Shown here: positions 17,924-64,000 of the stretch, piece by piece
Layout of the letters: the number at the start of each line of letters is the position of its first letter
Position numbering within the stretch: the stretch's first letter is position 1
From: Bacillus sp. (in: firmicutes)
GTDB lineage: Bacteria > Bacillota > Bacilli > Bacillales > Bacillaceae
DNA length: 64,000 nt
Direction of reading: 5' to 3'
Assembly: GCA_031180805.1 (NCBI GenBank)
Contig: JAPSLL010000006.1
Location: 1-64,000, forward strand
Made by a program: the position numbers and the translations under genes
Notes under the pieces: model-generated
The model's database searches: none
What the model was told of the DNA's origin: nothing
Seen by the model: the letters and a program-made list of their open reading frames with translations, nothing else

Positions 17924-18195
17924 AAAAAAGCCTTTCATCTCCATTTCTAGAGACGAAAGGCTGTTATCAGCTTACGCGGTACCACTCTAATTCACACCTT
18001 ATGATGTGCACTTTGGTAGATACAATCGTACAAATACTATGTATCCTCCTAATATAACGGTTAGGCTCCGTCTCCACCTACTCTAATAAATATTTCAGCG
18101 AGCTACTTCAAGGTGAGTTCAGATTTTTCTCACGACTGTTTTCCACCAACCAACAGCTCTCTGTGCGTTTAAAAAATCTTACTAGTCCTTTTCAA
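17924..18195 (-). ncRNA. T-box leader (Leu, CUC specifier) of leuA
   Basis: Minus strand has GAGAAAAATCTGAACTCACC (specifier region), AGAGTGGTACCGCG T-box sequence (17975-17989), and terminator AGCCTTTCGTCTC-TAGAAAT-GGAGATGAAAGGCTTTTTT. Confidence 0.93.
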
Positions 18196-18215
18196 TGTAT
18201 TTAAATATTTAGAAT

Positions 18216-62607: not shown

Positions 62608-62791
62608 ACATAATCGACAACCTTAAAGTGAAAATTAAAATACTCTTAAAACACAAACCCAATAATTATCCACCGTTTATTGTAATAAGATTTTTACGAT
62701 GTAATGATTAAGATTAAATTTTATCATTGAAAAAAGGGATGAAATCTAGTAAACTCTATATTGTCTTTCTTAGAAACAAATTTGTTAATAC

Positions 62792-62854
62792 CTGTATAAC
62801 CTCAAGAATAAGGCTTGAGGGTCTCTACCAGGAACCATAAAATCCTGACTACAG
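62792..62854 (+). ncRNA. Purine riboswitch aptamer, C at the specificity position (guanine-type)
   Basis: CTGTATAACCTCAAGAATAAGGCTTGAGGGTCTCTACCAGGAACCATAAAATCCTGACTACAG; P1 CTGTA/TACAG, P2 CCTCAAG/CTTGAGG, P3 CAGGA/TCCTG; discriminating base C at 62849. Confidence 0.95.
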
Positions 62855-62893
62855 AAAATGAATTGATCATTTTTTGTAATCAGGATTTTTTTA
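62842..62893 (+). terminator. Riboswitch expression-platform terminator
   Basis: ATCCTGACTACAGAAAATGA-ATTGA-TCATTTTTTGTAATCAGGAT followed by TTTTTTTA; overlaps the aptamer 3' half as in pbuE. Confidence 0.9.
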
Positions 62894-62930
62894 TTTGAAA
62901 TATTTTTTTAGAAAGGAAGGAATATAAACG

Positions 62931-64000
62931 ATGAATGTAAAAGTTTTTATACTTGCATTGTCAACTGTCGCAGTTGGACTTGTTGAATTAATTGTAGGTG
63001 GGATCCTACCAACGATTGCAAATGATTTTCATATCTCATTAAGCACTGCAGGCCAGCTTATTACTGTTTTCGCACTAATTTATGCTGTTGCTGGCCCTGT
63101 ACTCCTTGTCATAACTAGCAAAGTAGAGCGAAAAAAGCTCTATCTTGCTTCCTTGTTTGTTTTCTTTATCGGGAATATGATGACGTATTTTAGTACGAGT
63201 TTTACCGTTTTGATGATGGCAAGAGTTTTAACTGCAATGAGTACAGCATTGATCGTTGTGTTATCGTTAACGATCGCTGCTAAAATTGTTGCTCCAAAAC
63301 ATCGTGCTAAAGCTTTAGGGCTTATTTATATGGGCATTAGCTCGTCACTTGTGATGGGTGTACCGCTTGGAATCTTGATCTCCAATTCATTTGGGTGGCG
63401 TGTTATTTTCCTTGGAATTGCCATTTTATCCATTGGTTCTTTTTTGCTTATTTCAATCTTTTTGGAGCAAATTCCTGGGGAAAAGACGATTCCACTTTCA
63501 CAACAACTACGGGCTGTCGGCAGCGCAAAGATAGGCAGTGCTCACCTTGCAACAATGTTTATGCTAGCAGGACATTATACGCTTTACGCCTATTTCACTC
63601 CGTTTTTACAATCGGAACTTCATTTAAATTCCAATTGGATTAGTATTTGTTATTTAATATTTGGGATTGCAGCAGTTAGCGGCGGCGCCTTTGGGGGTAT
63701 ATTATCAGATTCGATTGGAGCACGTAAAAGCATTTTCGTTGTAATTAGTGCATTTGCTATAGTGCTATTTATATTGCCATTTACGACTTTTTCATTGTTC
63801 CTTTTCATACCGATGATGATGGTCTGGGCGGCTTTAAGCTGGAGTTTGGCACCACCTCAACAAAGTTACTTAATTCAAACAGATCCTGCTACTTCTGACA
63901 TACAGCAAAGCTTTAATAACTCTGCTTTACAAATCGGTATTTCCCTTGGTTCAGCATTCGGTGGCATCGTGTTAAACCAAACAGGTACTGTATCTAAAAC
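62931..64000 (+). CDS. pbuE: PbuE-like MFS purine base/nucleoside efflux transporter, partial (runs off the window)
   Basis: Manual translation [59 protein letters not shown]...[40 protein letters not shown] is open to the end; not in the ORF track. Confidence 0.92.

Follow-up and report, generated by a model that had tools for sequence, protein, structure and literature searches.

Purine Riboswitch Leader and Downstream Transporter Gene

The far end of the window (the whole stretch of DNA analysed, 64,000 nucleotides) carries a purine riboswitch leader followed by a transporter gene, both on the + strand. A likely sigma-A promoter lies at 62727-62755 (TTGAAA, 17-nt spacer, TAAACT). It matched 9 of 12 positions in a scan that also listed chance sites, and its hexamers and spacing recur in the genus orthologues of the leader. 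The Rfam covariance model of the purine riboswitch, RF00167, matched 62772-62871 (+) end to end, with 77.7 bits against a gathering threshold of 37 and an E value of 3.8e-12. A likely ribosome-binding site, GAAAGGAAGG, is located at 62911-62920 (+), and the gene at 62931-64000 (+), which runs off the window, encodes a PbuE-like MFS transporter of about 400 aa (PF07690, E 5e-44; 400 aa were read in L006). Pfam found MFS_1 alone in this protein, and none of the NCBIfam equivalogs reached its cut-off. The protein was 62-67% identical to riboswitch-linked MFS proteins of same-family genomes, including the group whose aptamers carry G48. By this comparison with riboswitch-linked relatives, it is a putative member of the PbuE family, from which its function is predicted by homology. 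The only other RNA family match in the window was a T-box leader at 17946-18204 on the - strand (139.4 bits, E 5.3e-31).

The three helices of the aptamer contain canonical pairs only. The 5' strand of P1 (CUGUA, 62792-62796) pairs with UACAG at 62850-62854, which is shared with the terminator. The P2 hairpin (62800-62820; strands 62800-62806 and 62814-62820) closes on L2, AAUAAGG (AATAAGG in DNA; 62807-62813), and both of its junction-proximal pairs are C-G. The Rfam alignment placed J2/3, with the sequence GUCUCUAC, at 62821-62828, with C48 at 62823, U51 at 62826 and A52 at 62827; position 48 is therefore C, not G. In the P3 hairpin (62829-62847; strands 62829-62833 and 62843-62847), an A·A mismatch (62834/62842) is followed by L3, CCAUAAA (CCATAAA in DNA). 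The 109-nt leader folded at -37.9 kcal/mol, with a z score of -7.05 against 200 shuffles.

The base that pairs with the ligand (position 74, xpt numbering) lies at 62849 and is C, the guanine type, and not the U74 of an adenine riboswitch. The initial annotation had reported this base and had named a T on resequencing as grounds for abandoning its reading. A second assembly, that of Metabacillus niabensis, has C74 as well, which rules out a sequencing error at 62849. Beside C74, the pocket bases U22, U51 and A52 are intact in the sequence and in the Rfam alignment. It is extremely unlikely that the leader is a 2'-deoxyguanosine or guanine-II variant: such types all share C74, but J2/3 here is of normal length and retains UCUAC, U51 included, as had been pointed out earlier against a 2'-dG variant, it lacks the insertion that guanine-II aptamers have in this segment (PMC9295807), and the RF00167 match runs from end to end. 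The loops L2 and L3 had also been thought slightly unusual. They proved ordinary, and the L3 sequence CCATAAAA recurs in 13 U74/A and 12 C74/G relatives (base 74/terminator partner); being common to U74 and C74 leaders, it was dropped as a clue to specificity.

Terminator and Its Mismatch

The 5' arm of the terminator (62841-62861, +) overlaps the 3' strand of P3, J3/1 and the 3' strand of P1. The 3' arm (62867-62887, +) contains a hexa-U tract at 62870-62875, and a tract of seven U (62886-62892, +) lies at the foot of the stem. This is the architecture of pbuE, and together with the covariance match and PF07690 it bears out the earlier description of a canonical purine aptamer and an overlapping pbuE-style terminator before a PbuE-like MFS gene. 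In the stem, C74 faces A at 62879 (+), which would pair with U74; most other C74 pbuE leaders have G here. The initial annotation had described C74 as the only mismatch in a 12-bp arm. The C74·A mismatch is indeed the sole one, while the stem has 20 pairs (8 + 12), including one G·U at 62854/62874. A scan for consensus terminators reported none; the mismatch, which divides the stem, is the probable cause.

In silico, the energy of the terminator was -22.6 kcal/mol with C·A, and -26.5 with either U-A or U·G. The C·A pair thus costs the terminator 3.9 kcal/mol compared with U-A, and U·G would cost nothing. The earlier claim that C74 weakens the terminator holds in these calculations (-22.6 against -26.5), yet natural U/A (-17.7 to -28.9) and C/G leaders span values that include that of the window terminator (-22.4). 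For this reason, we expect that the switch works and that its termination is leakier. A thermodynamic comparison of aptamer and terminator was non-discriminating, as the terminator won in all four base combinations, which is expected for a kinetic switch.

Closest Relative and Riboswitches of the Source Genome

The source genome belongs to Metabacillus, close to M. niabensis, and the nearest genome was M. niabensis itself (14,831-base contig NZ_CADEPK010000341.1). Its PbuE is 97% identical to the window protein, and its leader also has C74 with A. The two agree at every position of the aptamer (63 of 63 nucleotides) and of the terminator stem, whereas identity is 75% over the 400 bases upstream and 94.7% in the coding sequence. 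This indicates that the leader element is under constraint, since the aptamer and stem have remained identical while their flanks diverged.

The C·A pair might instead have broken the switch, leaving the pump effectively constitutive and the aptamer a relic. The terminator is weaker than it would be with U-A or C-G, and G, not A, stands opposite C74 in 46 of the 53 C74 leaders of the whole set. However, the identity of aptamer and stem in two species with diverged flanks, an energy inside the natural U/A and C/G range, and the rise of the C·A state in three lineages, with every pocket base kept in each, all argue against a broken switch, which we consider unlikely.

All seven purine riboswitches of the source genome have C74, so none of the adenine type was found among them. 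The other six precede genes resembling xpt, a nucleoside-binding lipoprotein gene, purE, guaA and two NCS2-type purine permease genes, as judged by eye from the translations. Their B. subtilis counterparts xpt and purE, like pbuG there, are switched off by guanine. In one of the six, before an NCS2-type permease gene (L007, 1501-1601; C98:7041-7141), U replaces A at position 73, beside C74 (GGCTTGTCTACAAGG).

Base 74 and Its Partner among Relatives

Leaders were collected across 21 genomes of the genus with a pattern that accepted either C or U as base 74 and either A or G opposite it. Twelve genomes matched, ten with U74/A and two with C74/A; all ten other genus orthologues with a leader are thus U74/A. 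The same pattern in 400 genomes of the order returned mostly U74/A, some C74/G, two further C74/A (G044 and G089) and one U74/G, and a second search in 401 genomes of the class, for U74/G, found one more. A scan for C74 alone in 85,488 named species gave 50 stretches, with G as the partner in 46 and A in 4. These four were Bacillus litorisediminis, Cytobacillus depressus, M. niabensis and a member of the Lachnospiraceae, whose leader precedes a permease gene, not pbuE. After pooling and removal of duplicates, there were 69 U/A, 46 C/G, 7 C/A and 1 U/G leaders. All five C74/A leaders compared for it have the hexa-U tract (a U run of 6).

The two positions are associated (Fisher's test, p = 2e-18, ignoring relatedness). 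The pbuE orthologues in the tree comprised 47 U-A, 36 C-G, 5 C·A and 1 U·G, and once the sample was restricted to leaders gathered without selection for C74, the counts were 47, 6, 4 and 1, respectively. C74 pbuE leaders are therefore widespread, and most carry the compensating G (e.g., Lysinibacillus, Sporosarcina and Lederbergia). One C74/G pbuE leader came from a record titled Bacillus subtilis DE0224 (L085), which is the same locus as in genome G198, a member of another family (f41, genus g64); the species name on this record is probably wrong.

Some leaders stood before other genes. Adenosine deaminase genes were preceded by adenine-type ON leaders of like architecture in 19 Bacillales genomes. 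A Clostridia MAG has a C74/G ON-type leader before a xanthine dehydrogenase FAD subunit, which would be logical for a gene induced by guanine or xanthine. Three Cohnella leaders of the C74/G ON type are followed by the gene of an FAD-dependent protein, 88-94% identical among the three, which may be a guanine- or xanthine-linked oxidoreductase.

Evolutionary History

The history of the two positions was inferred on a maximum-likelihood tree of 86 PbuE proteins, over which U/A, C/G and C/A are scattered. The C/A state needs three separate changes, even when well-supported branches alone are counted. Correlated evolution of the two sites fitted better than independent evolution (2dlnL = 38.2, 4 df, p about 1e-7). 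The parent of the window clade was reconstructed as U/A, with a posterior of 0.996 or more under both models. In view of this ancestor, the U74/A state of the genus orthologues and the A stranded in the terminator, descent of the window leader from a U74 switch of the adenine type, through a single change of U to C, is supported. This change had been proposed from the single leader, and the alignment of orthologous leaders suggested with it (10 of the 12 in the genus are U74/A) agrees: U74, and not C74/A, is ancestral in the window lineage, and the terminator base covaries with base 74.

Could C74/A be an old stable state, or a C74/G state that has lost its pairing G? C. depressus offers an ambiguous case of this kind, as its C/A leader has a C/G leader as its sister. 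For the window lineage, the U/A ancestor (posterior at least 0.996 under both models) and the ten of ten other genus leaders with U/A make such an origin very improbable.

Among order models with equal numbers of parameters, the best was that in which base 74 changes first in both directions (lnL -40.7), followed by partner first (-46.7), all changes through C·A (-47.9) and all through U·G (-59.2). The independent-pairs sign test gave 4 concordant, 0 discordant and 3 pairs without change (p 0.125), and is underpowered with so few pairs. Given that there are few events and that the C74-directed scan enriches C/G rows, these results support, without demonstrating, the view that base 74 changes before its terminator partner. 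This order is notable, as U·G is free for the terminator in silico whereas C·A costs 3.9 kcal/mol.

We are inclined to believe that position 74 of the pbuE leader acts as a toggle: one-base ligand swaps would have occurred repeatedly, the terminator pair being broken and then repaired, with the window leader as an unrepaired intermediate and guanine ON switches on pbuE common but overlooked in Bacillales. This suggests that the textbook adenine-ON regulation of pbuE is one of two forms in Bacillales, which, if true, would affect the annotation and modelling of purine export.

Ligand and Proposed Mechanism

In the add aptamer, the U68C change (position 74) gives guanine specificity (PMC8191784). 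In the same pattern searches, U74 was present in the leaders of 19 of 19 adenosine deaminase genes, one adenine deaminase gene and one MTA/SAH-type deaminase gene, and no adenosine/adenine-type deaminase gene was found behind C74 among the matches of the named-genome scan with a readable gene. Among the genes other than pbuE behind C74 are those of a xanthine dehydrogenase FAD subunit and of two permeases of the xanthine/uracil type; pbuE is the gene found with both U74 and C74. G48 was seen only with U74, in one clade of five leaders from same-family genomes. G48 together with C74 reportedly traps the pocket (Tremblay, in 2011); the pattern is consistent with exclusion at position 48 and is not independent evidence of it.

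Based on C74, the intact pocket without the guanine-II insertion and the gene-ligand control, the ligand of the window leader is expected to be guanine or hypoxanthine, as in known relatives. There is a real possibility, somewhat short of an even chance, that the physiological ligand is hypoxanthine or xanthine rather than guanine, as C74 permits all three, and switching would be otherwise alike. PbuE is known as a hypoxanthine/adenine exporter, which fits this alternative. Guanine-I aptamers favour guanine only about 10-fold over both (PMC9295807). On the other side, the C74 class normally binds guanine best, and the sequence alone fits either ligand.

We consider it very probable that the leader is a transcriptional ON riboswitch with an aptamer of the guanine-binding (C74) type, placed on a PbuE-family purine-base efflux pump and derived from a U74 switch by one change. 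Its anatomy, ancestry and covariation can be read from the aligned leaders, and its ligand, its ON direction in the cell and the substrate of the pump are predicted from known relatives. In the model of B. subtilis pbuE, P4 forms at the hexa-U tract and its 3' strand invades P1, and triples that the ligand organises in J2/3 and at the upper end of P1 stop further invasion through J3/1 and P3 (PMC7707468). The parts needed by this strand-exchange model are present in the window: the P4 hairpin, the hexa-U at 62870-62875, the A·A mismatch of P3 and two canonical pairs at the base of P2. Without ligand, the 3' arm of the terminator would invade P1, J3/1 and P3, and transcription would stop at 62886-62892. 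With guanine (or hypoxanthine) paired to C74, the junction would lock, invasion would be blocked and the pump gene would be transcribed. The gate nucleotide itself, at which the invading strand reaches the ligand gate, is the one in the C·A mismatch, and this may allow much basal read-through. On this reading, the leader is caught between the change of specificity and the repair of the terminator, with A 62879 left over from U74.

Comparison with Known Systems

Engineered xpt/pbuE chimeras are known (PMC7707468). Among openly licensed papers, no description was found of pbuE under an ON switch with a canonical guanine-type aptamer; an earlier account may exist elsewhere. In the natural series U-A, C·A, C-G and U·G, one nucleotide both chooses the ligand and is part of the terminator. 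Existing sequences thus allow one to measure in what order, and at what cost, the steps of a ligand change in a riboswitch take place.

The window leader resembles the adenine ON riboswitch of B. subtilis pbuE in its gene family, aptamer fold, terminator invading P1, J3/1 and P3, A·A mismatch of P3 and hexa-U on the 3' side of P4 (PMC7707468), but it has C74 instead of U74, a C·A mismatch in the terminator, and C48 instead of G48. With the guanine-I riboswitches (xpt-pbuX, purE and pbuG) it shares the pocket bases, including C74, U51 and U22; those are OFF switches whose aptamer excludes an antiterminator, whereas here the aptamer excludes the terminator. Guanine-II riboswitches of Paenibacillus phosphoribosyltransferase genes likewise have C74 and a predicted ON logic, but unlike the canonical aptamer of the window they have a one-nucleotide insertion in J2/3, other changes and other genes (PMC9295807). 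The pbuE leaders with C74/G, from Lysinibacillus, Sporosarcina, Lederbergia and other taxa, share the aptamer class, gene and architecture of the window leader and differ from it in having G opposite C74, where the window has A, so that the pair is restored.
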